From positions 17,268 to 81,267 of the forward strand of contig CAISJL010000064.1 in assembly GCA_903885665.1 (NCBI GenBank): 64,000 bases of DNA. Reading direction: 5' to 3'. Below are positions 27,224 through 43,785 of the stretch, piece after piece. Source of the stretch: an uncultured beta proteobacterium (GTDB lineage Bacteria > Pseudomonadota > Gammaproteobacteria > Burkholderiales > SG8-41). A program made the position numbers and the translations under genes. The first letter of the stretch is position 1. Each line of letters starts with the position of its first letter. The notes beneath the pieces are model-generated. The model was not told where the DNA came from. It did no database searches and saw only the letters and a program-made list of their open reading frames with translations.

Positions 27224-28345
27224 TTAATGACTGCCAGACTGGATGCCATTTTCTTTGATGATTTTTGCCCACTTTTGTAAATCATTACGAATAATTGCTT
27301 CGAACTCAGCAGGTGTATTGCCTACGGCAGTAGCGCCTTCTGAATTCAGCATATGTGAGAATTCTGCTGTACGCACAACTTTGACAATCTCTTGATTAAG
27401 CCGGTCAATGATTGCTTTGGGAGTGCCGCGGGTGGTGAGTATGCCATTCCAACCACGCGCTTCGTAACCGGGTAGTGTCTCGGCAATTGCTGGGACATCG
27501 GGTAATACGCTGAGACGTTGTTTGGCACCTACACCGAGTGCGCGAATCCGACCTGCTTTTACTTGCGGGGAAACAGTGCCAGCAGAGCCGATTAAATAAA
27601 AATCTACTTCGCCCGAGATCACTGCAGTGAGGGCTTGTGGCGCACCTTTATAGGCGACTTGCGTAAATTGAATGCCAGCCATGACGCGTAGTAGTTCAGC
27701 GGCGAGTGAGCCCATGCTGCCAGCACCAACCGAGCTGTGATTTAACTGCTTAGGCTTGGCTTTTGCCAGATCGATTAGTTCTTTGACGCTACGCGCAGGA
27801 GATTGTTGTCCAACAATCAGCACAGGCGCAACCGCACTCACCAATGTGATCGGGGCAAAGGCCTCAGCCGTGTTGTAGGGGATGTCTGGATAGAGGCTGG
27901 GATTCACTGGGTGGGAGGGGATAACCATCAGCAGGGTATAGCCATCAGGCACTGCTTTTGCCACGATGGCAGAACCGACGATGCCGCTGGCGCCTGGGCG
28001 ATTATCGATAACGACTTGTTGCCCTAGGCTCTCGGAAATCTTCGGCGTGATGGTGCGGCCAATAATGTCCGTAATGCCACCGGCACCACTAGGAATAATC
28101 ATGCGAATAGGCCGTGTAGGGTAATCGGCCGCAAAGACAGGCGACTGTATCCATAAGAAGCAACAGATAGCAATCAATAGGGTGATACAATAGCGGCCAT
28201 TTGCAAAACTGATTGGCGTTTGTGATGAGTGCGAAGTCAATCGGAGATCCTTTGAATACGGTTGCTGATGCGGGATTGTAAAATAATATGTATAGCACGT
28301 GTATATAGAAGTGTCGGCTAATCGTAATAGTGACGGGCTCAGCAA
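27224..28345 (-). CDS. Bug/TctC-family substrate-binding protein
   Basis: YPTRPIRMIIPSGAGGITDIIGRTI...VIDNRPGASGIVGSAIVAKAVPDGYTLL; N-terminus of the listed ORF probably over-extended. Confidence 0.9.
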   Translation of the reverse strand: MLSPSLLRLADTSIYTCYTYYFTIPHQQPYSKDLRLTSHSSQTPISFANGRYCITLLIAICCFLWIQSPVFAADYPTRPIRMIIPSGAGGITDIIGRTITPKISESLGQQVVIDNRPGASGIVGSAIVAKAVPDGYTLLMVIPSHPVNPSLYPDIPYNTAEAFAPITLVSAVAPVLIVGQQSPARSVKELIDLAKAKPKQLNHSSVGAGSMGSLAAELLRVMAGIQFTQVAYKGAPQALTAVISGEVDFYLIGSAGTVSPQVKAGRIRALGVGAKQRLSVLPDVPAIAETLPGYEARGWNGILTTRGTPKAIIDRLNQEIVKVVRTAEFSHMLNSEGATAVGNTPAEFEAIIRNDLQKWAKIIKENGIQSGSH

Positions 28346-28491
28346 CTATAGGCTAGTTGTTAGCCAAATTGTAATATAATCAGTTGCTTATAGTTTTCGA
28401 ATTGGTCGGATCTGGTGGTTTTAGTGCTGTCTGCTATCTGATGGCGTATAGTTTGGTGAATTGTAGTATCACTTTTTGAATAGGATGGATT

Positions 28492-29481
28492 ATGCAGATG
28501 TTTCGTGTGCAGCAGGTTTTAGTCGTTTTGTGGAATGTTCTGATGTTCTCTGGCCACAGCTTTGCGCAAACTGATATGGCTAAAGATTACCCCAGTAAAC
28601 CAGTGCGTTTTATTTCGCCGTTTACGCCGGGAGCGGGAACGGATGCGACAGCGCGTACTTTGGCAAAATACATGGGCGATACTTTGCAGCATCAATTTGT
28701 CGTTGATAACCGAACGGGGGCATCTGGTTCTATTGGTGTTGAAATGACTGCGCAAGCGCCTGCGGATGGTTACACGATTTGTTTGATATCGGCATCGCAT
28801 AGCGTGAATTCTGGCACTAACCCAAACTTAAGTTATAACCTCGGTAAAGATTTGCAAGGCGTCTCGCAAGCAACCTCTTTATTTTATTCAGTGTATGTCA
28901 ACCCTAAGGTGCCAGTTAAATCAATTAATGAATTGATTGCTCACGCTAAAGCTAACCCAGGCAAGTTGATGTTCAGTTCTTCGGGCACTGGTGGCTTACA
29001 ACATTTTGCTGGTGAGATGTTTAATTACATGGCCAAAGTGCAGATGATTCACGTGCCGTATAAAGGCACTGCATCTGGTGTGGTTGCTAATCTGGCCGGT
29101 GATGTGCAAGTTGGTTTTGGTACATTGTTTGGTGTGCGTGCGCACATGCAAACGGGCCGTTTGCGGGTGTTGGCAATCACAGCAGCGAAGCGTTCACCAG
29201 CGATACCTGAATTACCAACGGTTGCTGAGTCAGGTATTCCTGGCTATGAGGTTGATCAATGGTATGGTGTGATTACAGGGGTACGAGTGCCTAAGCCGAT
29301 TGTGTATAAGTTGCGCAATACTATTGTTGAGGCACTTAAAGACCCGGAGATTGCTAAACGCTTAGCCGCTGAAGGTTCAACTGCTGTGGGTTCAACTCCG
29401 GAGCAATTCACTAATCATATTCGTTCTGAAATGGCGAAATGGAAAAAGTTAGCAAAAGCCGCTAAGATGGAATTACATTAA
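28492..29481 (+). CDS. Bug/TctC-family substrate-binding protein
   Basis: YPSKPVRFISPFTPGAGTDATARTLAKYM...VDNRTGASGSIGVEMTAQAPADGYT. Confidence 0.93.
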   Translation: MQMFRVQQVLVVLWNVLMFSGHSFAQTDMAKDYPSKPVRFISPFTPGAGTDATARTLAKYMGDTLQHQFVVDNRTGASGSIGVEMTAQAPADGYTICLISASHSVNSGTNPNLSYNLGKDLQGVSQATSLFYSVYVNPKVPVKSINELIAHAKANPGKLMFSSSGTGGLQHFAGEMFNYMAKVQMIHVPYKGTASGVVANLAGDVQVGFGTLFGVRAHMQTGRLRVLAITAAKRSPAIPELPTVAESGIPGYEVDQWYGVITGVRVPKPIVYKLRNTIVEALKDPEIAKRLAAEGSTAVGSTPEQFTNHIRSEMAKWKKLAKAAKMELH

Positions 29482-29570
29482 TTGTTTGCAACAGTTGATC
29501 GTAGTGCCGTATTGAGAATAATTTTTAAAATAATTTTAGAATAATGATAATGACTCTATAGGAGAAGACG

Positions 29571-30578
29571 ATGATACCGAGCATCAATTGTAGTAGTTTA
29601 TGGTCTGGGCAGATGTTGACCTTAGTGGTGCTTGGTATCATCCAGTGTGTGACAGGTACGGTAGCACTTGCAGCGCATGCTGCTAGCTACCCTAGTCGGC
29701 CGGTGCGTCTGATTGTGCCGTTTCCACCGGGTGGCAGTAATGATATTGTTGGTCGTCTGGTGGGCGCTGGTCTGGGTGAACGTTTAGGCAAGCAAGTCGT
29801 GATTGATAATCGTGCTGGTGGTAATTCGATTATAGGCACAGAAATGGCAACCCTAGCGCAGCCCGATGGATATACCTTGCTGGTGATTTCAACCTCATTT
29901 ACGACCAACCCAATTATTCACAAACTGCCTTACGATTCGCGTAAATCATTGGACTGGGTAGCGATGTTAGGTGTAGGCCCGAATGTCTTGGCTGTAAACC
30001 CAAGTTTTCCTGCAAAATCTGTCGCCGAGCTCATTGCAATGGCTAAGGCTAAACCCGATGCAATTATTTATGCATCGACTGGTGTTGGTAGCAACGCCCA
30101 CTTTGGCACTGAATTATTGAAGCATTTAACCGGCACTAAAATGCATCATGTGCCTTATAAAGGAGGCGGTCCTGCGTTGCTAGCTACAGTGGCAGGTGAA
30201 GCCAATATTTGTTTATCATCTTTAATCCAAGCCATTGGGCATTTGCGTTCTGGTAAGTTGCGTGGCTTAGCGACGAGCGGTGCCAAGCGCAGTGTGACCT
30301 TACCTGATATGCCCACAATTGCTGAGGCTGGTGTGCCTGGCTATGACACCGCTAATTGGTGGGGTGTAGCAACGCCTAAGGGTACGCCAACAGCGATTAT
30401 TCAACGAATCAATGCTGAAATTAAAGTGGTTCTCGATCACCCTGATACCGCAAAGCGAATGATTAATGAAGGTGCAGAACCGGCGACCAAGACGCCAGCA
30501 GAGCTTGGAGTGTTCGTGAATGCTGAGATGGACAAATGGATTAAAGTCGCAAAGATTGCTGGAATACGTGGTGAATAA
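29571..30578 (+). CDS. Bug/TctC-family substrate-binding protein
   Basis: YPSRPVRLIVPFPPGGSNDIVGRLVG...VIDNRAGGNSIIGTEMATLAQPDGYTLL. Confidence 0.93.
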   Translation: MIPSINCSSLWSGQMLTLVVLGIIQCVTGTVALAAHAASYPSRPVRLIVPFPPGGSNDIVGRLVGAGLGERLGKQVVIDNRAGGNSIIGTEMATLAQPDGYTLLVISTSFTTNPIIHKLPYDSRKSLDWVAMLGVGPNVLAVNPSFPAKSVAELIAMAKAKPDAIIYASTGVGSNAHFGTELLKHLTGTKMHHVPYKGGGPALLATVAGEANICLSSLIQAIGHLRSGKLRGLATSGAKRSVTLPDMPTIAEAGVPGYDTANWWGVATPKGTPTAIIQRINAEIKVVLDHPDTAKRMINEGAEPATKTPAELGVFVNAEMDKWIKVAKIAGIRGE

Positions 30579-30692
30579 AATAGAGTTTAATGCGTTAGTA
30601 TTTTTTGTTATCTAGGGCCTTAGAATAGTCTGTGTTAGCAAGTTTGTGTTGCATAACTTCGTTTGCCTATCACGGAGAGTATTTTTGTGTAG

Positions 30693-31691
30693 TTATTCAG
30701 CACGTATGCCGGTGAGTTGTACAATCCGCGCCCATTTTTGCAGATCTTGTTTGAGAAAAATTTGAAACTCTGCAGGTGTAGAGGCAGTAATTTCAGCAGC
30801 TTCATTGATTAGTCTGGTTCTTACTTCAGTGCGAGCCAGAGCGGTTTGCGCTTCTCGGTGCAATCGATGGGTAATGAATTTAGGTGTGAGTGGTGGTGCA
30901 ACAATACCAAACCAGTTAATCACTTCAAAGCCAGTCACCCCCGACTCGTCTACTGTGGGTATTTCAGGCAGATGGCTTGCTCGCTTTAGACTGGTGACAG
31001 CGAGTAGTTTGAGTTTGTTCGCACGCCCTAGACTTAACACGGTAATGGGGCCTGCAAATTGAAATGCGACCTGACCTGATAGCACCTCGCTAGTGGCAAG
31101 AGCAGCCCCTTTATACGGTACATGGGTGGCAGAAATGCCAGCCATGATGGTGAATAAAGCGCCAGACATATGGCCACCACTGCCATTGCCGGCAGAGCCA
31201 TAGAGTATTGTTTTTGATTTTGCTAATTGAATTAACTCAGGCAATGTTTTGACAGGCAAGCCATTGTGCGCGGCCAATACTAGTGGTGACCAGCTCACTT
31301 GGGTGATTGCAGTGTTATCAGTAACAGGTGAATAAGACGATTGAGTGCGCATTGCCGCATTGGTGGTATAGGAGGTGTAGACCATGCTAATGGTATGCCC
31401 ATCGGGTTTTGCAGCTGCAATCATCTCTGCAGCAATCACGCCACCAGCTCCGCCACGGTTATCGACAACAAAGGGTTTTCCCATTTGTTCGGTAAAGCGC
31501 GGTCCGAGCAGTCTTGCTGTCATATCGACTGTGCCTCCAGGTGGTGCAGGCACCAAGAATCGAACTGGTCGACTGGGGTAAGCTGCATCACCCGCTGCTA
31601 AGGCCAAGCTTTGGCTCAGTGCAAGCGCGAGCGATGTGACGATACTACGGAGTTGCTGGTGGTGGGTGTATCTGAGTGCAATACCTGGCAT
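30693..31691 (-). CDS. Bug/TctC-family substrate-binding protein
   Basis: YPSRPVRFLVPAPPGGTVDMTARLLG...VVDNRGGAGGVIAAEMIAAAKPDGHTI. Confidence 0.93.
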   Translation of the reverse strand: MPGIALRYTHHQQLRSIVTSLALALSQSLALAAGDAAYPSRPVRFLVPAPPGGTVDMTARLLGPRFTEQMGKPFVVDNRGGAGGVIAAEMIAAAKPDGHTISMVYTSYTTNAAMRTQSSYSPVTDNTAITQVSWSPLVLAAHNGLPVKTLPELIQLAKSKTILYGSAGNGSGGHMSGALFTIMAGISATHVPYKGAALATSEVLSGQVAFQFAGPITVLSLGRANKLKLLAVTSLKRASHLPEIPTVDESGVTGFEVINWFGIVAPPLTPKFITHRLHREAQTALARTEVRTRLINEAAEITASTPAEFQIFLKQDLQKWARIVQLTGIRAE

Positions 31692-31699
31692 GGATAGTC

Positions 31700-33442
31700 C
31701 TATGATTTAGGGTGTTGTAGAGCTGCTAAGCGTTGCGACCAGTCTTTGGGTAGTTCGATGCGTTTGCTAGTGCGTGTGCCTTGCGAATGGTTGGCCATAT
31801 AGCCGCGTGATTGATTGCGACCGGGGTCACCGGCCACCACTATACCAATATGTTTGGCAGCGACGATCATACGAACTAGTCGATCAGGGTCGCTGGACGC
31901 GATGTAATCGGGTTGCAGCAAACCTTCTTTCACCAAGCCCTCAAAGTCAAGTGCAAGACCTCCGGTTTTAGTTGCGTAATGCTTCATTGTAGAGGCAGGC
32001 ATCGTTGCTTGCTGTACCAAAAAGTCGCGCAATTGATCTTTGCTCCATTCTTTTGCGATCACCTTGGCAATGCTTGGGCCTATGACCAAAACAGAGTGCC
32101 AATAGCCACGCTTCAACCCGGAATATGCCCAATATGAAAATGCACCATAGATCGCATCGACAAACTGTTGTGCATGACCGGCTGCAGTAGTGCCTGAACT
32201 ATAGGTGGGTGGTGAGATACACACCACGCTTTGGATGGTGACCACATTGTCATCAGCGGCAAATCCCAGATCTTCACCGAAGGTTGGCCAACCAATATCG
32301 CGTGACCATTCCTCATCTTCTGCAAGAGCGACATTGAAGGTATAGCCAATGCTACCTTTGTCGCCATCACCAGGTGCAATACGATAGCCACATATATTGC
32401 GCATATATAAGCGTAAGAAGCGACCAATGCTGGAATTAGCTTGGCGACCAATCCGCATGACGCCAGCGCCATGATTGATATCTAATGTTTTAATAATAGG
32501 GCCGCTGATAATCACCAAGGGCTCCCAAGCCGGCGTGGAACCAGCGTCTTCGATTCTAAATTGAGGATCTGCAATAACCTCGACAATCGCAATTAAAACC
32601 GGCATATATTCGGGGCGGCAACCAGCCATTACGCCATTAATGGCGATACTGAGAATAGTGGCTTCGCGGCCTTCTTGCGGTAACGTGCCTAGGAGATCAT
32701 TGCGGTCACGCGCAGTAAAGGCGAGAAATGCAGCGACTGCCTCTTGGGTTGGAGGAATGATAGGTAGGCCATCACTCCACAACTGATGATGAAAATATTC
32801 TTCTACTTCGGGCAGTGTGCCTGAGAACACAACGCTGCCCGGTAGCGGATCTGCGGGTGGTTGATGGATGGTTGTCTCAGCGATTCTTGGCTGAGTCAGG
32901 CCAGTAATAACAGCTGGCAGTAAATGCGCTTCAACTTTGCGCCGCAGCTCGGCATCGCTATCTACCATAGGGGCGCCTGGATATTCGGCGACTGGTAATG
33001 TCAAACCTAGTCCTTTGCTCACCAAGGCGGCTTGACGCATAAAACTAGAGCCAATAATGGTGACACTGGGGATGCCGGCTTTTTCTGCTGCTGCACTAGC
33101 CCGCAACACGGCGGGCGTACAGCTGCCTCAAGCACCAATACCAGAGATCACTGCATCGCAGCCGAGCGAGCGTAATTTATCCGCTAAGCCTGCAACAATC
33201 TCACGATCTTGATTGCCATGGGTGTTGCCAAAATGGGTATGATCGACAAAGCGAATGCCAGGGTAGCGTTGTTGCAAATGCTCGCGCAGGATGGCATACA
33301 TCTCATCGCCGCGAAAGATTAAATCCCATAGTTCTGCAACAACCTTACCAGATAAGTCGGGGATTGCAGGGGCTGCACCCGTTGCGTTGACTGCCCGTTT
33401 AGCTAATGGCCATAACACATCAAATTGTCCACCGTTACTCAT
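31700..33442 (-). CDS. UGSC-motif selenoprotein: single CDS read through an in-frame TGA (Sec), with a large C-terminal domain
   Basis: Listed ORFs 33128-33520 and 31700-33109 are in the same frame; ...DAVISGIGA-[TGA]-GSCTPAVLRASAAAEKAGIPSV...; ATG at 33442 preceded by AAGGAG; 580 aa including one Sec. Confidence 0.85.
33090..33123 (-). promoter_or_regulatory. Candidate bacterial SECIS element
   Basis: GCUGUAC-GCCCGC-[CGUGUU]-GCGGGC-UA-GUGCAGC: 6-bp perfect upper stem, 7-bp lower stem, 2-nt bulge; G at apical loop position 2; loop starts 17 nt after UGA (33130-33128). Confidence 0.8.
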
Positions 33443-33524
33443 TATAAATACTCCTTGAAAATTTCTTAAAAAAATACTGAGTTGCTTATCGTAATGTGTT
33501 GCGTAAATTGTTGATAGCAATACG

Positions 33525-34502
33525 CTATTGTGCTTGTATGCCTGCAGCCTTTACCGCACGTGTCCATTTGGCTAATTCGGTGCGAATAATGGCTGCAAAT
33601 TGTTCAGGTGTGCCTGTAGCGACATCGGCGCCAAAACTAGCCAGCTTGTCTTTGACTTCGGTTTGACGCAGCGCGGAATTAATATGTTCGTTGAGGCGCT
33701 TGATGATCGCAGGCGGCGTGCCAACAGGCGCCAGATAACCAAAGAACCCACTGGCTTCATACTCAGGCACAGCAGCTTCTTTGACGGTTGGGATGTCGGG
33801 TGCGCTGGGGTGACGTTGCGCGCCTGTGAGTGCCAGCACTTTGACTTTGCCGGAGCGAACAAACGGAATAGCAGACGATAAGCTAGCAAACATAATATGC
33901 ACTCGACCGACCATTAAATCGGTGATTGCCTCAGTAGCCCCTTTGTAGGCAACATGTACAACTTTAATGCCAGTCATGCTGTGAAATAGTTCACCAGATA
34001 AATGCACCGCTGTGCCCACACCAGAGGAGGCAACATTGAGTTCGCCGGGACGCGCGCGCGCATAGTCGATGTAGTCTTTGAGTGTTTTAATCGGTAAGGT
34101 TGGTGCGGCAAGCACAGCATACTGACTGGTAGCTACACGGGCCACAGGTGCGAAGTCACGAACCGGGTCGTAAGGGAGCTTGGAGTAGAGGGCAGGGTTA
34201 ATTGCTAGCACTCCAGTAGTGCCAAACAAAAGGGTGAGGCCGTCAGGTGCGGCGCGAGCGACTATTTCAGCGGCAATACTACCGGCAGCGCCTGCGCGAT
34301 TGTCGATAATCATCATTTGCTTGAGTGCTTCATTGGCAGCTGGGCTAATCGCACGAGGAATAATGTCGCCGGCACTTCCTGGAGGAAAGGGCGCAATGAC
34401 TCGGATCGGGCGACCGCTAAAGGCGGTGTTAGGGGATTGTGCGTAACTCGTGCAGGCAAGGAATAACAATGAAAGCGGCAGTAGTTTCCAGATTATGAAC
34501 AT
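33525..34502 (-). CDS. Bug/TctC-family substrate-binding protein
   Basis: GRPIRVIAPFPPGSAGDIIPRAI...IIDNRAGAAGSIAAEIVARAAPDGLTLL. Confidence 0.93.
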   Translation of the reverse strand: MFIIWKLLPLSLLFLACTSYAQSPNTAFSGRPIRVIAPFPPGSAGDIIPRAISPAANEALKQMMIIDNRAGAAGSIAAEIVARAAPDGLTLLFGTTGVLAINPALYSKLPYDPVRDFAPVARVATSQYAVLAAPTLPIKTLKDYIDYARARPGELNVASSGVGTAVHLSGELFHSMTGIKVVHVAYKGATEAITDLMVGRVHIMFASLSSAIPFVRSGKVKVLALTGAQRHPSAPDIPTVKEAAVPEYEASGFFGYLAPVGTPPAIIKRLNEHINSALRQTEVKDKLASFGADVATGTPEQFAAIIRTELAKWTRAVKAAGIQAQ

Positions 34503-34993
34503 TGAATATACTCAGTTTAGTGTATCGAGAGGAGGTTCTATGAATGCATCTAGATATTAGGTGACTGGCGCAGCACTCGCAATCGAAAATTCCATATTAA
34601 TGCACGGTACGCTTAGATCCTTGGTTATGGATTGACAGTGTGCAATGCTTGGGCGAACATCAGAGATGACAGTCTCCAATAGTTCGCATCATGAGCGGCG
34701 GCATGATAATCGTGGCTAGGATGCTTAAAATAGCAAAATATCTAGTATTTACTAGAGAAATGAATACCAGATAGCGATCTCGAGCAGCAATGGCTTGTAT
34801 TTACGTTTATGCATTAGTGCATTAGTGTGTCAGTACATCAACTATTGTTGCAATTATTCGAGCGGTATCGTTAAAAATACAAATCGTATGGCTGACTGTA
34901 TGGCTGTTTAACTATGTCAATGTATCACTGCATGTTCAGCGCCAAGATCAAAGTTGTAATGAATGATGTGTTGAATGACCGTTTGGAGAGTTT

Positions 34994-36145
34994 ATGAATT
35001 TTCACTTGAGCGAAGCGCAACAAATGTTTCGTGATTCGGTTGCGGCTTTTGCGCGTAAAGAGTTAAGCGAAGGCGCTTTGGAGCGTGCGCATAATCCACA
35101 CTTCCCCCATGAAATTGCCCACAAGATGGCAGCTGCAGGTCTCTTAGGCATTACATTGCCTGAAGCCGATGGTGGTGCAGGTGGCACTGTAATGGATGCA
35201 GTGTTAGCGATCGAAGAAATTGCAAAACATTGTCCACGTAGTGCGGATGTGATTCAAGAGGGTAATTTTGGCGCGATACGGGTATTGGCACATTTTGCTA
35301 ATGCCGATCAAAAACAGCGTTATTTAGCGCCATTGTTACGTGGCGAGGAAGTCATTGCCGTTGCAATGACTGAACCCGGTGCGGGTTCAGCAACCACAGA
35401 CTTGGTGACCAGTGCCACACCAGAGGGTGCTGGCTACCGAATCAATGGTAGTAAGGTATTTCCTAATCCGCATGCTGACCAATATTTAGTCTATGTGCGT
35501 TATGGACCTGGGGTTGGTGGGATTGGTTCGGTAATGCTGAGACGTACAGCGCCAGGATTTAGCACCGGTAAGCCCTCTAAATTCATGTCGGGTAATGATT
35601 GGGCAACATTGTATTTTGATAATGTCTATGTACCCCCTGAGGATGTATTGTTGGGCCCTGGTGGTTTCAAAAAACAAATTGCGGGATTTAATGTGGAGCG
35701 TGTGGGTAATGCATCGCGGTCGTTAGCCTATGGCCGCTACTGTTATGAAGCAGCCCGCACTTATGCCATGACCCGCACCCAATTTGGCCGACCATTATGT
35801 GAGTTTCAAGGTCTGCAATGGAAATTTGCAGATATGAAAATGAAGCTCGACGCTGCACAGTTGTTGTTATATCGCGCTGCCAGCAATGCGGACCGTGGTT
35901 TCCCTTCGGCTGATGAGACGACTGTTGCTAAGTTGATGTGCAATATATCGGGCTTTGAGGTTGCCAATGAGGCAATGCAAGTCATGGGTGGTTTGGGTTA
36001 CACCCAAGAGACTTTGGTTGAGTATTGTTTGCGGCGCTCTCGTGGTTGGATGATCGCCGGTGGTTCAATTGAGATGATGAAAAATCGATTGGCTGAAATT
36101 GTATTTGACAGAAGGTTCTCGCAACGCCCGCCGCGTACTGCATAA
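34994..36145 (+). CDS. Acyl-CoA dehydrogenase family protein
   Basis: VIAVAMTEPGAGSATTDLVTSAT; YAMTRTQFGRPLCEFQGLQWKFADM; QVMGGLGYTQE. Confidence 0.93.
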   Translation: MNFHLSEAQQMFRDSVAAFARKELSEGALERAHNPHFPHEIAHKMAAAGLLGITLPEADGGAGGTVMDAVLAIEEIAKHCPRSADVIQEGNFGAIRVLAHFANADQKQRYLAPLLRGEEVIAVAMTEPGAGSATTDLVTSATPEGAGYRINGSKVFPNPHADQYLVYVRYGPGVGGIGSVMLRRTAPGFSTGKPSKFMSGNDWATLYFDNVYVPPEDVLLGPGGFKKQIAGFNVERVGNASRSLAYGRYCYEAARTYAMTRTQFGRPLCEFQGLQWKFADMKMKLDAAQLLLYRAASNADRGFPSADETTVAKLMCNISGFEVANEAMQVMGGLGYTQETLVEYCLRRSRGWMIAGGSIEMMKNRLAEIVFDRRFSQRPPRTA

Positions 36146-36191
36146 GTATTTAAGCGCTAATTTTTTGTTTAATACAGCTAAGAGGGTTGAT

Positions 36192-37178
36192 ATGAGATTA
36201 ATGCGATGGTGCGTGATCGGTGGATTATTCATGTTTGCTACCGCTATTTGGGGGCAAACAGTTGCAACCAATACTGCAGTCTATCCGACGCGTGCGCTCA
36301 GGATGATTATGCCGTTTCCCCCAGGTGGACCTACCGATATATTAGGTCGATTATTAGCGCAACGTTTGGGTGAAGCCTTAGGGCAGAATGTGATGGTGGA
36401 TAATCGTGCGGGTGGCGGGGGTGCCATTGGTGGTGTTGCTGCCGCGCGTTCAGCTCCCGATGGTTATACTTTGTTTTTGGGGGGAATTACGACATTAGGT
36501 TCGGGGCCGTTTATTCATAAAGCATTGCCCTACGACCCACTCAAAGACTTTCATACGGTGACGCAGGCCACATTGCAACCCTTGTTACTAACAACACACC
36601 CTTCGTTCCCGGCAAGATCAGTGAAAGAATATATTGCCATTGCCAAAAAGCGACCAGGTGAAATTAATTACGCAAGCTCTGGGCCCGCTGGTTCGGGACA
36701 TCTTGGTGGTGAGTTATTTAACTATGTCATGCAAATTAAATTAGTGCATGTGCCTTACAAAGGGGCGCCCCCTGCATTACAAGATTTGGTTGCAGGACAA
36801 GTGCAGTCGATGTTTGGAACAATGTTGGCAACCGTACCGGTAGTCCGTAATGGTAAGGTGCGCGCTCTAGCGATTACCGGATCAAAGCGCTCTATTGCGT
36901 TGCCAGATGTTCCTACGTTTACAGAGCAAGGCTATCCGCAATATGATGCCAGTTCATGGAATGGCATATTGGTGCCTGCTGGCACGCCGCGTCCTATCAT
37001 CGATCGCCTACATACGGAGTTAGTCAAAATCATTCGTGACCCAAAGGTTTTGGAGCGATTAATTAATGATGGTCCAATTCCGGTGGGTAATACGCCTGAG
37101 GAATTCACAGCATTTATTAAGATTGAACAAGCCAAATGGAGTAAAGTGATACGCATGGCTAATATTCGTATTGAGTAG
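36192..37178 (+). CDS. Bug/TctC-family substrate-binding protein
   Basis: YPTRALRMIMPFPPGGPTDILGRLLAQRL...MVDNRAGGGGAIGGVAAARSAPDGYTL; ATG 36192 starts the signal peptide. Confidence 0.92.
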   Translation: MRLMRWCVIGGLFMFATAIWGQTVATNTAVYPTRALRMIMPFPPGGPTDILGRLLAQRLGEALGQNVMVDNRAGGGGAIGGVAAARSAPDGYTLFLGGITTLGSGPFIHKALPYDPLKDFHTVTQATLQPLLLTTHPSFPARSVKEYIAIAKKRPGEINYASSGPAGSGHLGGELFNYVMQIKLVHVPYKGAPPALQDLVAGQVQSMFGTMLATVPVVRNGKVRALAITGSKRSIALPDVPTFTEQGYPQYDASSWNGILVPAGTPRPIIDRLHTELVKIIRDPKVLERLINDGPIPVGNTPEEFTAFIKIEQAKWSKVIRMANIRIE

Positions 37179-37234
37179 TTTTTGCATTAAATAATTGTAA
37201 TATTGTAATTTTTATCAATTAGAAACAAATCACT

Positions 37235-39358
37235 ATGACTAAGCATGAAGACCCATTTGCCGCCGACCGTGATCAACTCGGCAGTGCTTTATTTACCCCG
37301 CGTAGCGTTGCATTGGTTGGGGCCTCTGCAGACCCATCTAAACTCGCCTCTCGTCCGCAGCGCGTGTTGCGTAAACACGGTTTCACCGGAACAATTATTC
37401 CAATTAATCCGGCACGCACTGAGATAAACGGTGATCGTGCTTATCCGAGCCTGGCGAGCGTGCCAGAAAAAATTGATCACGCATTTATTATGGTGCCTTC
37501 TGCGGCAGTACCCGGGGTGATTGATGATTGTGTAGAAGCAGGGGCCAAAGTTGCCACAATATTTACTGCAGGTTTTGCAGAATTAGGTGAGGCAGGCCGA
37601 CGTGTGCAAGACGCTATGGTTGAAAAAGCACGTCAAGGTGGAGTGCGTTTAATTGGCCCTAATTGCTTGGGTGTGGTGAATGTCAGTGGCCATACCGTAT
37701 TGTCTGCAAATGCAGTGTTGGAGAGTGAAACCTTACACTCTGGCCATTTAAGCTTAGTGTCGCAAAGCGGTTCGATGATGGGCGCGATTGTGTCACGCGC
37801 GCAGACCCGTGGTTTAGGGTTTTCAAAGCTAGTGTCAGTAGGCAATGAGTGTGATGTGGGCGTGGGGGAGATTGTGGATTGCATGGTAGATGACCCCGCA
37901 ACGCGTTGCATTATGTTGTTCTTGGAGACCTTTAGGGATGCGCCACGCTTAGGACTGGCGGCGCGCAGAGCGTATGCGCTAGGTAAGCCAGTGATTGCCT
38001 TTAAGCTTGGACGCTCAGCAGTGGGTCGTCAGATAGCCACTACCCACACCGGTGCCATTGTGGGTGCGGATGATGTAGCCAATGCTTTTTTTAAGGATAA
38101 CGGCATCATTCGGGTTGAAACATTCGAGGCGCTGTATGAAACCGCACAATTAGTCACTGGTTTTAAACCGCCCAAGGGTAAGCGGGTTTCGGTGCTGACC
38201 GGAACCGGTGGTGCCGCTGCAATGGTGGTCGATCGTTTGGGTTTGACGGGGATTGATGTAGTAGGGCCTACGCCGAAAATCATGGCTGATTTGGCATTGC
38301 AAAACATTCAAGTCTCAGATGCACCACTGATTGATATGCCTATGGGCAGAGGCGAAGGCAAGGTGTATTCAACCATTATTAACGCGCTAATGGATTCAGA
38401 GCATTGTGATGCGGTTGTGGCTGTGCAAGGTTCAACGGCAACGCAAAATCCAGAGTCAGTGCGGCAACGGATGTTAGCGGCAACATTGGGAGCAAAGCCA
38501 TTAGCGATTTTCTTGGCACCGCAGGCCGATACGGCGTTGCGAATTTTGCAAGATAGCAATGTTGCTGCATTTCGTACGCCAGAGGCTTGTGCGGATGCAG
38601 TGCGGGCTTACTGCGAATGGCAAGTACCCACAGATCACCCTGGAATCGATCCTCAGGTATTGAAGTCACTAAACACAACACTCCAGTCAATTGTCGGTGC
38701 GCCTATGCATGAGCAAGCAGCGGCATCAGCGCTTTCTGTTTTAGGGATTCCCTTTGCGCCAAGCCAAGTGATTGCGGGTGGTGTCGAGTCTGTAGCGCTA
38801 CAGTTTCCAGTGGTCGCTAAAATTCTATCGGCTGATATTCCGCACAAGACAGAGGTTGGTGGAGTGGTATTAAATATCGTTGATGCCATTGAGTTACGCA
38901 CGACGGTAGACGCCATGTTGGCGCGCATTGCTCAATCTAATCCGCAGGCCCATATCGAAGGCGTGCTTGTACAATCGATGGCGCGCGGTATTGCTGAAGT
39001 GATTGTTGGCTATCGCCGTGATCCTGATGTGGGGCCAGTGGTGATGGTTGGGGTCGGTGGCGTAATGGCCGAGTTGGGTGGTGGACATGCCGTGCGCTTG
39101 GCGCCAGTGACCTTGGCAGAAGCGCACAAGATGATTGATGAGGTGCCGGGTTTTGCCTTGTTACGGGGTTACCGCAATCAACCTAAAGGCGATTTAACAG
39201 CCTTGGCACAGGTGATTCATCAGTTGTCGTTACTGGCTTGTGTAGACACATGTGTAGTTACGGAGGCAGAGATTAATCCCTTACTCGTGAAGTCTGATGG
39301 CGTGCTTGCTGTCGATGCGTTGTTGGTGACTGCGGCGCTTAATAAGGAAACTATATGA
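37235..39358 (+). CDS. ADP-forming acyl-CoA synthetase family protein (CoA-binding, ligase and ATP-grasp domains)
   Basis: FTPRSVALVGASADPSKLASRPQRVLRKHGF; RLIGPNCLGVVN; LVSQSGSMMGAIVSRA; FPVVAKILSADIPHKTEVGGVVLNI. Confidence 0.9.
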   Translation: MTKHEDPFAADRDQLGSALFTPRSVALVGASADPSKLASRPQRVLRKHGFTGTIIPINPARTEINGDRAYPSLASVPEKIDHAFIMVPSAAVPGVIDDCVEAGAKVATIFTAGFAELGEAGRRVQDAMVEKARQGGVRLIGPNCLGVVNVSGHTVLSANAVLESETLHSGHLSLVSQSGSMMGAIVSRAQTRGLGFSKLVSVGNECDVGVGEIVDCMVDDPATRCIMLFLETFRDAPRLGLAARRAYALGKPVIAFKLGRSAVGRQIATTHTGAIVGADDVANAFFKDNGIIRVETFEALYETAQLVTGFKPPKGKRVSVLTGTGGAAAMVVDRLGLTGIDVVGPTPKIMADLALQNIQVSDAPLIDMPMGRGEGKVYSTIINALMDSEHCDAVVAVQGSTATQNPESVRQRMLAATLGAKPLAIFLAPQADTALRILQDSNVAAFRTPEACADAVRAYCEWQVPTDHPGIDPQVLKSLNTTLQSIVGAPMHEQAAASALSVLGIPFAPSQVIAGGVESVALQFPVVAKILSADIPHKTEVGGVVLNIVDAIELRTTVDAMLARIAQSNPQAHIEGVLVQSMARGIAEVIVGYRRDPDVGPVVMVGVGGVMAELGGGHAVRLAPVTLAEAHKMIDEVPGFALLRGYRNQPKGDLTALAQVIHQLSLLACVDTCVVTEAEINPLLVKSDGVLAVDALLVTAALNKETI

Positions 39359-40320
39359 GATTGCATTGCTATCTGAGCGTTTTAATTGGATGGTGTTTGT
39401 TCGGTTTGAGTGAAGTGGTCTTCAGTGCAGACTATCCGGTGAAGCCGATTCGTTTTATTTCGCCGTTTTCACCGGGTGGTGGCACGGATACTGTTGGACG
39501 TGCGCTAGCGGCTCGCTTGGCTGAGTTAATTGGAAAGCCGGTGATTGTCGATAATCGCCCTGGTGCTGAAGGCAGTATTGGTACTGAGTTGGGGGCGCGA
39601 TCGCCTGCTGATGGTTATACGATTTTAGTGGCTAATTTAGGGACGCTCGCGATAAACCCGAATTTGCGTCAAGTTGCATTTGATCCATTACGTGATTTTG
39701 CGCCGATTACCCAAACTACGGCATCGTCTACGGTATTGGTAGTATTGCCCACGATGGGCGTGCGCACTGTTAAAGAGTTTGTGGCTTTGATGAAGTCTAA
39801 GCCGATGAACTATGGCGCTAGCTCATCAGCGACGTTTTTGCCCATGGAGATGTTCAAGCAGTTGGCAAAGTTTGAGATGACTCATGTGCCCTACAAAGGT
39901 ACAGGGCCTTCGATCACTGCAATGTTAAGTGGCGAAGTGCAAGCCATGTTTGGCGGTTCGATTGTCACTACACCACAAGTCAAGTCAGGTCGATTACGCG
40001 CCTTGGCAGTTGCGGGTGATCGGCGTGCCAGAGCGCTACCCGATGTGCCGACGATTGCAGAGTCTGGTTATCCCGGTTATGAAGCCAATAGCTGGAATGG
40101 GTTGGTAGCACCTGCCGGAACCCCTCGCCCAATCATTAACCGTTTAAATGCGGCATTGATAAAAATTTTGGCGATGCGAGAGATGATTGATTATATGGTT
40201 GCTGATGGTGCAGAGCCTCAGAGTAGTACGCCCGAGGAGTTTGCGAGTTATATTCGTTCAGAGCATGCCAAATGGGCTAAGGTGATTCGAGCCGCTAATA
40301 TCAAGAAAGATCAGCTTTGA
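39355..40320 (+). CDS. Bug/TctC-family substrate-binding protein
   Basis: YPVKPIRFISPFSPGGGTDTVGRALAARL...VDNRPGAEGSIGTELGARSPADGYTI; ATGA overlap with upstream synthetase. Confidence 0.93.
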   Translation: MRLHCYLSVLIGWCLFGLSEVVFSADYPVKPIRFISPFSPGGGTDTVGRALAARLAELIGKPVIVDNRPGAEGSIGTELGARSPADGYTILVANLGTLAINPNLRQVAFDPLRDFAPITQTTASSTVLVVLPTMGVRTVKEFVALMKSKPMNYGASSSATFLPMEMFKQLAKFEMTHVPYKGTGPSITAMLSGEVQAMFGGSIVTTPQVKSGRLRALAVAGDRRARALPDVPTIAESGYPGYEANSWNGLVAPAGTPRPIINRLNAALIKILAMREMIDYMVADGAEPQSSTPEEFASYIRSEHAKWAKVIRAANIKKDQL

Positions 40321-40325
40321 GCGTA

Positions 40326-41705
40326 ATGCCCGAAGAGGGGCTTGGACTGGGTGCGACTAGACGTTTTGCACAGCATATTGCTGAAACAAAATTTTCACAG
40401 CTATCGCCTTTGGTAATACATGCGGCTAAGCGTGCATTACTTGATTTTATGACGTGCGCCGTATCAGGGTCTGCGATGCCAGTCTCGAAGGCATTGTTAG
40501 CGTATTTTCAGGAGAGCGATGCGACGCGGATTGCAACCGTGATCGGTAGTGGCGAGCGACTCTCGGCTGCTAATGCCGCGCTAGTCAATGGTGCGAATAC
40601 CCATGGCCTAGACTTTGATGACGGCCATACTCATGGTTCAGCGCATCCATCCGGTGCTATTTTTCCTGCAGTTCTAGCTGCTGCCGAGCAGCATCAATCC
40701 TCTCCGCAGGCGATTTTGCTTGCTGCAGTGATTGGCTACGATGTCATGACTAGAATTGCCTCGGCAATGCACCCAGTGAGCGCGCAACGCGGTTGGCATA
40801 ACACACCCGTATCTGGCGTCTTTGGTGCGACTGCTGCCGTGGCCTCCATTTTGCAATTGGACGCTGCCGCCAGCCAACATGCGCTCGGTTTGGCAGGGGG
40901 GTTTGCTGGGGGTATTCGAGAGTATTTAGAAGAAGGTGCGGAAATTAAACGCTTGCACCCAGGCAAGGCGGCACGCGATGGTTTGCTGTGTGCAGAGTTC
41001 GCCGCACGTGGTATTACGGGCTCGAGCAAGGTGTTAGAGGGTCGCTATGGATTGTTCAATGTTTTTGTTGGTGGTCAGGTTAAATGGGACCGTTTATTTG
41101 AAGGTCTAGGTGAGCGCTACGAAATCAATCAAGTCTATTTCAAGCCCTACCCATGTTGTCGCCATTATCATTCCGTAGTTCAGGCGCTATTGACGCTGCG
41201 CGAGCAGCATGGCTTTAATGCTGCAGATGTGAAGCGTATGGAAATTGGTTTGTACGCGGTTGGTGTGCATGGCCATGATCACAAGCATTGTGAAAATTTA
41301 TTAGATTCGCAAATGAGCGCGCCTTGTGCTGCTGCGCTTGCTATAGTCGATGGTGGCTTGGCCGCACATCAATTTTTACCGGATAGCGTACAGCGACCTG
41401 CAGTGAGTCGACTGATCGATCTCGCAGCGGTGAACATAGATCCTGAATGTGAACGTATATATCCGCAACGGCGCTCTGGTGCAGTCAGTGTGACTTTGCA
41501 AAATGGGCAAACTGTTCAGATGAGAATACTTGATCCTAAAGGTGAAGGGGATAACCCCATGACAGATGCAGATTTGGAGCAAAAGTTTTTGGTAAATTGC
41601 ACCCCCTTGATAGGTGCTGTCAGAGGCCAACGCCTATTAGAGGCAATATGGAATTTCGACCAGATGCGTGATAGCCAAGAATTATTTGACTGGCCCCAGA
41701 CCTAG
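40326..41705 (+). CDS. MmgE/PrpD family protein
   Basis: TKFSQLSPLVIHAAKRALLDFMTCAVSG; ANTHGLDFDDGHTHGSAHPSGAIFPAVLA; VYFKPYPCCRHYHSVVQALLTL. Confidence 0.92.
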   Translation: MPEEGLGLGATRRFAQHIAETKFSQLSPLVIHAAKRALLDFMTCAVSGSAMPVSKALLAYFQESDATRIATVIGSGERLSAANAALVNGANTHGLDFDDGHTHGSAHPSGAIFPAVLAAAEQHQSSPQAILLAAVIGYDVMTRIASAMHPVSAQRGWHNTPVSGVFGATAAVASILQLDAAASQHALGLAGGFAGGIREYLEEGAEIKRLHPGKAARDGLLCAEFAARGITGSSKVLEGRYGLFNVFVGGQVKWDRLFEGLGERYEINQVYFKPYPCCRHYHSVVQALLTLREQHGFNAADVKRMEIGLYAVGVHGHDHKHCENLLDSQMSAPCAAALAIVDGGLAAHQFLPDSVQRPAVSRLIDLAAVNIDPECERIYPQRRSGAVSVTLQNGQTVQMRILDPKGEGDNPMTDADLEQKFLVNCTPLIGAVRGQRLLEAIWNFDQMRDSQELFDWPQT

Positions 41706-41799
41706 TGATTTGAGCGAACTGCAGTCGATTTTAATATGTCGATTGCAGAAGTAGCAGTGATTTTTTATAGTGATTTATTTTTAATGAGAGAGAGTTGTT

Positions 41800-42717
41800 A
41801 TGAGTGCTGGAATTGTAGAAGGCAAGGTTGTTATTGTGACGGGTGCAGGTCGTGGTATTGGTCGTGATATTGCTAAACTGATGGGTAAAGAGGGTGCCAA
41901 GGTTATTGTGAACGACATTGGTGCTTCGCTAGAGGGTGCGGGTCTGGATGCAACACCAGCTGATCAAGTGGTTGCTGAGATTCGTGCTACAGGTGGTGAG
42001 GCGATTGCAAGCTATGACAGCGTTGCAGATTGGGATAGTGCGCAGCGCATTGTGCAAGCAGCAGTAGATACCTATGGTCGGATTGACAGCGTAGTCAATA
42101 ATGCCGGTATTTTGCGCGATATTATTTTCCATAAAATGTCATTTGAAGATTGGGATCAAGTGATTAAGGTAATTTTATATGGCGCATTTAATATGAGTCG
42201 TGCCGCTGCTACGCATTTTCGTAATCAGAATAGCGGTAGCCTAGTGCAAATGATTTCAAACTCTGGCTTGGCAGGTAATGTAGGACAGGCTAATTATGGG
42301 GCTGCCAAAGCAGGTATGGTGATGTTGTCAAAGACTATTGCTTTGGATATGCAACGCTATAACGTGCGTTCGAATTGTATTGCACCGTCTGCTTGGACGC
42401 GGATGACTGGATCAATTCCTGCCAATACACCAGATAAAGCAGCTCGCGTTGCGCAACGGCAGTTAGTAACCCCAGATAAAAATGCACCTTTGGCAGTATT
42501 TTTGGCCAGCGATGCAGCACATGAGGTGAATGGACAAATTTTTTACTCGCGCATGAATGAAATATTTTTAGCGAGCCAGTCCAGGCCGATTCGTGGTGTG
42601 CATCGTAGCGATGGCTGGACGCCACAGGCGATTGCTGATCATGCGCTACCGGCATTAAGGCCATCTTTCTTTGCGCTGGAGCGCAATCAAGATGTGTTTA
42701 GTTGGGATCCGATCTAG
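41800..42717 (+). CDS. Short-chain dehydrogenase/reductase
   Basis: VVIVTGAGRGIGRDIAKLMGKEGA; SVVNNAGILRD; YGAAKAGMVMLSKTIALDM. Confidence 0.93.
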   Translation: MSAGIVEGKVVIVTGAGRGIGRDIAKLMGKEGAKVIVNDIGASLEGAGLDATPADQVVAEIRATGGEAIASYDSVADWDSAQRIVQAAVDTYGRIDSVVNNAGILRDIIFHKMSFEDWDQVIKVILYGAFNMSRAAATHFRNQNSGSLVQMISNSGLAGNVGQANYGAAKAGMVMLSKTIALDMQRYNVRSNCIAPSAWTRMTGSIPANTPDKAARVAQRQLVTPDKNAPLAVFLASDAAHEVNGQIFYSRMNEIFLASQSRPIRGVHRSDGWTPQAIADHALPALRPSFFALERNQDVFSWDPI

Positions 42718-42735
42718 CCGTATTCAGATCGTGTT

Positions 42736-43785
42736 GTGATGGGTGCTGGTCAATCAAAGGAAATGCTAATGAATCCACTAATCTGTGTCTGGTTTATGCA
42801 GGTTACTAGCGTATGTCGCCGTTTTGCGATGATGCTTGCAGCGGTCTTGTGTAGCGGCATTCTCATGAACAGCGTATCCGCACAACACTTTCCAACAAAA
42901 CCTGTGCGGATCATCGTCGGCTTTGGTATCGGTGGGGCCACAGACATTGTGGCACGCACTTTGGCACAAAGCCTAGCAGCCGATTGGAAACAAAATGTTT
43001 TGGTTGATAATCGTCCAGGGGCAAGTGGAATGATTGCAGCAGAAATGGTTGCCAAGGCGCCAGCCGACGGTTACACCTTGATGATCACGCCACAAACTAG
43101 TCTTGCGGTTGCCCCTGCGCTCTATGGTAAAGCGCCTTATGATAGTTTGCGTGATTTCACCACCATTACCTTGACTGGTTATACGCCATTGCTAATGGTG
43201 GTGCATCCATCGCTACCAGCTAGAACATTTAAGGAATTTATTGCGCTTGCAAAACGCAGTAAAGAGCCTTTGACCTTTGGTTCGGGTGGGGTCGGTTCGT
43301 CGCCGCACATGGCTGGTGAATTGATGCGAGCACAGCTTGGCATTCGCATCACTCATATACCTTATAAGGGTGAAAATCCAGCGCTAGCCGATACGGTAGG
43401 TGGGCAAATTCCGATGATGTTTGGTAATCTGCCGGTCGCGTTGCCGCAAACCAATAGCGGTCGATTGCGGGGTTTAGCGAATACTTGGAGTGTGCGCTCA
43501 CCCTTGGCACCTAATATTCCAACAGTTGCTGAATCTGGTTTTAAGGACTACGCCATTGCTACCTGGTTTGGTTTGTTAGGGCCAGCCAATATGTCACCTG
43601 TGCTCACTATGCGTATTCAACGTGATACCGCTAGACTATTTAATGTGCAGGCGACTAAAGACAAATTAACGGGCATGGGTGTTGATTTGGTATTAAATAC
43701 CCCCGAGCAGTTTCGTGAGTATCTGCGTGGCGAGTTGGTGCGTTATAGCAAAGTCATTAAAGATGCGGATATTAAGGCAGAATAA
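42736..43785 (+). CDS. Bug/TctC-family substrate-binding protein (true start probably about 30 nt downstream of listed ORF start)
   Basis: FPTKPVRIIVGFGIGGATDIVARTLAQSL...VDNRPGASGMIAAEMVAKAPADGYTL. Confidence 0.9.
   Translation: MMGAGQSKEMLMNPLICVWFMQVTSVCRRFAMMLAAVLCSGILMNSVSAQHFPTKPVRIIVGFGIGGATDIVARTLAQSLAADWKQNVLVDNRPGASGMIAAEMVAKAPADGYTLMITPQTSLAVAPALYGKAPYDSLRDFTTITLTGYTPLLMVVHPSLPARTFKEFIALAKRSKEPLTFGSGGVGSSPHMAGELMRAQLGIRITHIPYKGENPALADTVGGQIPMMFGNLPVALPQTNSGRLRGLANTWSVRSPLAPNIPTVAESGFKDYAIATWFGLLGPANMSPVLTMRIQRDTARLFNVQATKDKLTGMGVDLVLNTPEQFREYLRGELVRYSKVIKDADIKAE

Follow-up and report, generated by a model that had tools for sequence, protein, structure and literature searches.

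A UGSC fusion selenoprotein of a betaproteobacterium and its probable kinship with proline and glycine reductases

Introduction

PrdB and GrdB enzymes are known from anaerobes, and the mechanism of proline reductase as described includes pyruvoyl activation. In D-proline and glycine reductase selenocysteine (Sec) is described as bonding through its selenium to a carbon of the substrate, after which a thiol breaks this bond to give a selenenylsulfide (PMC10298544). For fluoroacetate, whose C-F bond is cleaved, a GrdB-like protein has been proposed as the agent, and in Cloacibacillus multiple substrate-specific B proteins are encoded beside transporters (PMC10838667), much as the UGSC copies described below lie beside solute receptors. 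GrdB, with models about 430 positions long, has GrdE, GrdA and GrdC as partners, and a clostridial prdB plasmid also carries selA, selB and selD, a packaging with a Sec reductase comparable to the linkage reported here.

The UGSC gene family is itself already known. The UGSC protein and its fusion with a domain termed 'Unknown_1' were reported in 2008 by Zhang and Gladyshev (PMC2398784), and the description given there is of a fusion like the present one, with a UGSC motif, mostly Sec, and a second conserved domain. According to two papers (PMC2398784, PMC13188914), UGSC is among the most abundant selenoproteins of aquatic metagenomes and was the most frequent family in nonmarine samples, UGSC-containing proteins being prominent in aquatic samples in the first of them. 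A table in a 2016 survey gives UGSC counts of 26 and 33, taken here as 26 organisms and 33 genes (PMC5029168); the gene described here is one of about 11 copies in a single genome. That genome belongs to a betaproteobacterium with about a dozen selenoprotein genes, which lies outside the three selenoprotein-rich groups named in the same survey.

Placement near PrdB and GrdB, together with the likely reductase and the receptor context, would give the abundant UGSC family a testable chemistry. Further, annotation pipelines break UGSC genes; on plasmids of Acidovorax and Paracoccus the copies are annotated as hypothetical proteins of truncated length. The open-access passages on UGSC consulted here make no mention of a PrdB/GrdB relationship. 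What appears to be new is the functional placement, the linkage to sel loci, a candidate for the reductase and the expansion in copy number.

One gene read through a UGA codon

In the window, the whole 64,000-nucleotide stretch of DNA analysed, two listed open reading frames, 33128-33520(-) and 31700-33109(-), lie in one common frame and are separated by a single break, a TGA at 33130-33128. An earlier note on this DNA had taken them for one gene, and reading through the TGA bears this out: a single open frame results, with the TGA as its only in-frame stop, at codon U105 of a U-G-S-C motif (U105-G-S-C108), and with a product of 580 aa encoded at 33442-31700 on the minus strand and terminated by TAG at 31702-31700. 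The ATG at 33442, with AAGGAG 8 nt before it, is likely the true start. The GTG listed as the start of the second frame is codon V112 inside the RNA hairpin described below, and is therefore probably not a real start (Table 1).

The assignment to the UGSC-type selenoprotein family, also made in the earlier note, stands: the first 180 residues match Pfam UGSC (PF24696) at 86.5 bits against a cut-off of 25, with the U/C-G-x-C motif present. The NCBIfam equivalog UGSC_fam (NF041046) scores 46 bits, under its 125-bit cut-off, and the protein thus falls in the same superfamily as a divergent subfamily.

Table 1. Features of the selenoprotein locus in window coordinates
Feature	Position	Strand	Remark
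UGSC/C-terminal-domain fusion selenoprotein gene, 580 aa, Sec at residue 105	31700..33442	-	
Ribosome-binding site AAGGAG, 8 nt before ATG 33442	33451..33456	-	read from sequence
In-frame UGA, selenocysteine U105	33128..33130	-	TGA conserved in all close relatives
Cys108 codon, partner cysteine in U-G-S-C, invariant	33119..33121	-	aligns with second Cys of PrdB
SECIS hairpin, inner stem GCCCGC/GCGGGC at 33116-33099, 6-nt loop CGUGUU	33090..33123	-	
UGSC domain, residues 1-183, predicted alternating beta/alpha fold, PrdB/GrdB-like around Sec	32894..33442	-	
C-terminal domain, about residues 204-580, probably 'Unknown_1'	31703..32833	-	
TctC/Bug solute receptor, 82 bp upstream of selenoprotein gene	33525..34502	-	PF03401 243 bits
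TctC/Bug solute receptor, starts 8 bp past selenoprotein stop	30693..31691	-	PF03401 190 bits

Selenocysteine machinery and the SECIS hairpin

The Sec machinery that the earlier note proposed to look for is complete in this genome, with tRNA-Sec (selC) found at 75.6 bits, SelA at 557, SelB at 434 and SelD at 411. The genes for selA, selB and tRNA-Sec are clustered on a single contig. The selD gene, on a different one (contig 50 of the genome, locus L018), carries one in-frame TGA of its own and so encodes a selenoprotein too. Both selA and UGSC fusions are present in four other genomes of the same genus. More widely, selA exceeds its cut-off in 28 of 31 genomes with a UGSC-TGA gene versus 5 of 25 others, for which the computed p-value of 8e-8 overstates independence, since the comparison set was partly picked by UGSC presence and ancestry is shared. 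In eight genomes the distance from selA to a UGSC or partner gene is at most about 6.5 kb, in five at most about 250 bp, and in Paracoccus selB is a few genes from UGSC.

A SECIS hairpin sits immediately 3' of the UGA and is conserved in relatives. Across 46 genes, mean folding energy in a 45-nt window reaches its minimum at the UGA, at -20.5 kcal/mol versus an average of -12.7 kcal/mol (sd 2.0) over the scanned stretch of the same genes. Codons 110-114 read CCC GCC GTG TTG CGG in 21 divergent genes, with CTG at Leu113 in two, so that codon entropy over these residues is 0, 0, 0, 0.45 and 0 bits; 66 other invariant residues have a mean of 1.25 bits and none is zero. In the second main subfamily the stem differs in sequence and in the amino acids encoded, yet 97% of cells are paired, and covariation is 0.316 versus 0.139 when shuffled. 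The inner stem of the window's own subfamily is nearly invariant and consequently adds little covariation. An Rfam search of the locus reached no SECIS-type family. SelB would recognise the hairpin behind the UGA, leading to insertion of Sec at residue 105.

Conservation, cysteine homologues and paralogues

The TGA occupies the Sec column in all 29 full-length aligned relatives, at 25-66% identity to the window protein, and C108 is invariant among them; a column so widely shared means that the reading frame is not a matter of chance. Cysteine replaces Sec in natural homologues, as C-G-S-C in Haloterrigena, Halalkalicoccus and Variovorax and as C-G-L-C in one genome without detectable selA (that genome being 75% complete), so that the comparison of the UGA column suggested in the earlier note yields TGA in the close relatives and Cys elsewhere. 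One protein, from a record named as a Chitinophaga pinensis MAG (L084), is closely similar to a betaproteobacterial one (L082), for which reason its taxonomic label is doubtful.

The competing view that the TGA is a real stop, or that the gene is a pseudogene or the TGA a sequencing error, with two separate products, can draw on the ordinary use of TGA as a stop in this genome, where it ends 33 of 249 ORFs of at least 200 aa, and on the draft state of the assembly (187 contigs, 99.97% complete, 3.09% contamination). The same TGA in every full-length relative and in all own paralogues, the conserved hairpin with its frozen synonymous sites and the Cys homologues at the Sec site nevertheless make this view highly improbable. 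Sequencing error in particular, which the earlier note had raised, is excluded by independent relatives with the same TGA and hairpin, and reassignment of TGA is ruled out by its ordinary use as a stop elsewhere in the genome. Residue 105 is encoded as Sec, and the product is almost certainly a selenoprotein.

In a profile search of the genome 11 UGSC domains exceed the cut-off, every one of them with a single TGA, and one further UGSC fragment is present; several of the matches lie at contig ends, and the safe count is thus 10-11 distinct genes. This count rests on the profile search and not on a single-protein scan of the contigs, which recovers four loci only. A tree built from 32 fusion proteins includes six full-length copies from this genome. 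They are placed separately, most of them beside copies from other genomes or families; the expansion is thus old, and its members have probably specialised.

Relation to proline and glycine reductases

Members of the UGSC alignment match the GrdB, GrdF, GrdH and PrdB models, the window protein doing so in the Sec region, and the GrdB model is matched by 17 of 31 UGSC members (best E 1.7e-6). Within Pseudomonadota the GRDB family (PF07355) is represented only by Cys-type PrdB-like proteins, which served as a bridge: the UGSC profile aligns with five of them at E 3e-5, with these plus annotated PrdB proteins at 94% probability and E 1.3e-7 (U on U, C on C), and with PrdB alone at 91% and E 8.8e-7, all E-values being those of a single comparison and not of a database search. 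The PrdB proteins added were from Peptoclostridium, Terrisporobacter, Ligilactobacillus, Acetoanaerobium and Enterococcus, and the C-terminal domain, used as a negative control, gave 0.7%. In the alignment 'DAVISGIGAUGSCTPAVLRASAAAEKAGIPSVTII' of UGSC stands against 'DGVLLTAGUGTCHRSAVLVQRAIEEAGIPTVIIA' of PrdB, so that the U-G-T-C or C-G-T-C active site of PrdB is in register with U-G-S-C and the 'GIP' strand behind the Sec helix is common to both. On these profiles the UGSC domain very probably belongs to the PrdB/GrdB superfamily as a distant relative.

Homology to PrdB/GrdB spans only about 90 residues around Sec, a PrdA-like partner is lacking, an unrelated C-terminal domain is fused, and UGSC, unlike PrdB, is found here in Pseudomonadota and haloarchaea. 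The UGSC protein is not PrdB itself, the D-proline reductase equivalog TIGR04483 giving 17 bits, far under its 300-bit cut-off. None of GrdE, GrdA and GrdC was recognised in the searches made here; the GrdA search of this genome gave no match, and the control genomes were silent too. The Cys-type PrdB/GrdB-like proteins (L085-L089), with NCPVCHQ or NCPICHQ motifs, occur in a few Pseudomonadota genomes, and the Roseomonas and Haematobacter plasmid copies are annotated as glycine/sarcosine/betaine reductase selenoprotein B family.

In the AlphaFold model (pLDDT 87, pTM 0.90) strands and helices alternate, and Sec follows directly after a strand and before a helix. Many Rossmann-like proteins appear among the 50 PDB fold matches listed for this model, and thioredoxin, DsbA and peroxiredoxin do not; as modelled, the UGSC fold looks Rossmann-like, not thioredoxin-like. 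This bears on whether UGSC is instead a thioredoxin-like thiol/selenol oxidoreductase engaged in stress defence or disulfide exchange, as the UxxC motif and a thioredoxin reductase (TrxR)-like neighbour might suggest, and as would fit the thioredoxin-like fold called likely in PMC2398784 and PMC13188914. Such a fold is unsupported by the predicted model or the fold search, profile similarity points to PrdB/GrdB, and a set of eleven paralogues next to solute receptors does not look like defence, all of which leaves the oxidoreductase rather unlikely.

The C-terminal domain

The C-terminal domain is probably the 'Unknown_1' of Zhang and Gladyshev, matched by description. It matches no Pfam or NCBIfam family, and searching PDB sequences gave no relevant match, whether the query was the whole protein or a profile of UGSC, of the fusion or of the C-terminal domain. 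At loci L064-L066 the two domains are encoded by separate, adjacent, overlapping genes, and the fusion thus looks like a joined gene pair. Solo copies of the domain also occur (L095:4167-5231, L057, L030 and L033), and in the stretch retrieved around the L095 copy no UGSC gene was recognised. These copies hint at an independent role for the domain. A PrdA-type pyruvoyl partner was considered for it and set aside, as it has no profile similarity to PrdA.

Among PDB fold matches, class I fumarases come out best for the C-terminal model (E about 1e-4; 16 chains fall below 1e-3). This raises the possibility that the Sec or Cys nucleophile works with no net reduction, for example in a lyase, hydratase or isomerase that has organic acids as substrates and in which the C-terminal domain is a fumarase-like partner. 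The match is weak, however, with TM-scores about 0.2 and rmsd about 17 A, and identity as a fumarase was rejected on these values; the domain has only one well-conserved Cys and not a three-Cys Fe-S site, and the TrxR-like partner suggests a redox cycle. A non-reductive enzyme of this kind is accordingly unlikely.

Gene neighbourhood

TctC/Bug receptors stand on both sides of the window gene in the same direction. Such a receptor lies within three genes of 9 of the 10 own UGSC loci versus 25 of 74 background genes (p 0.001); TctC genes are abundant throughout, making up 12 of the genome's 147 background ORFs and 11 of the 51 ORFs in the window, and the linkage is therefore enriched yet not specific. 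UGSC relatives in other betaproteobacteria likewise have TctC neighbours, and in Halalkalicoccus TRAP/TAXI transporter genes lie near UGSC.

A gene for a TrxR-like flavoprotein with a conserved CxxC adjoins selB in this genome and in relatives (L107:10924-11826, L130, L131, L137, L125). The UGSC fusion of Variovorax comes straight after a TrxR-like gene and a TctC gene, and in Haloterrigena a homologue of the flavoprotein gene follows the UGSC and C-terminal genes. The flavoprotein is a candidate for a dedicated reductase of the selenoproteins in this group.

Proposed function

In light of these relations, the balance tips slightly towards a genuine selenoprotein that carries out PrdB/GrdB-type, Sec-dependent reductive cleavage of imported organic acids, with copies differing in substrate; reductive C-X cleavage, taken by itself, has about an even chance. 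Whereas the coding of Sec, the hairpin, the profile relationship to PrdB/GrdB and the gene neighbourhoods are observed, the scheme that follows, from its chemistry and reductant to the class of substrate and the part given to the C-terminal domain, is inferred by analogy with PrdB and GrdB. The C-terminal domain would assist in binding or activating a small organic acid taken up by the cell, Sec105 would attack a carbon with a leaving group, and Cys108 would resolve the selenium-carbon adduct, releasing the reduced product and leaving a selenenylsulfide. A dithiol system, probably by way of the TrxR-like flavoprotein encoded beside selB, through which NADPH electrons would pass, could then regenerate the enzyme. 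The roughly 11 copies may differ in substrate, with uptake by way of the neighbouring TctC receptors. The main weakness of the reductive-cleavage reading is that no pyruvoyl-type partner was recognised and that the C-terminal domain has no convincing relative. The short span of the homology around the Sec and the restriction of known PrdB and GrdB enzymes to anaerobes also count against it.

More broadly, and more tentatively, UGSC might represent an unrecognised class of enzymes that has radiated and that carries out reductive cleavage with the help of Sec, having a second domain built in, a TrxR-like reductase of its own and dedicated solute receptors. Such a class would be a Pseudomonadota counterpart of glycine and proline reductase, possibly in aerobes, and would let betaproteobacteria attack a wide range of organic acids in solution; the bonds cleaved might be C-N, C-O or C-halogen.

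MmgE/PrpD, tried as a linked enzyme, is not enriched near UGSC genes. Positions 27224-43785 of the window hold a dense cluster of TctC/Bug receptors together with acyl-CoA dehydrogenase, ADP-forming acyl-CoA-ligase-like, MmgE/PrpD, SDR and hydroxyisobutyrate-dehydrogenase-like genes, and are read as an organic-acid catabolism island.
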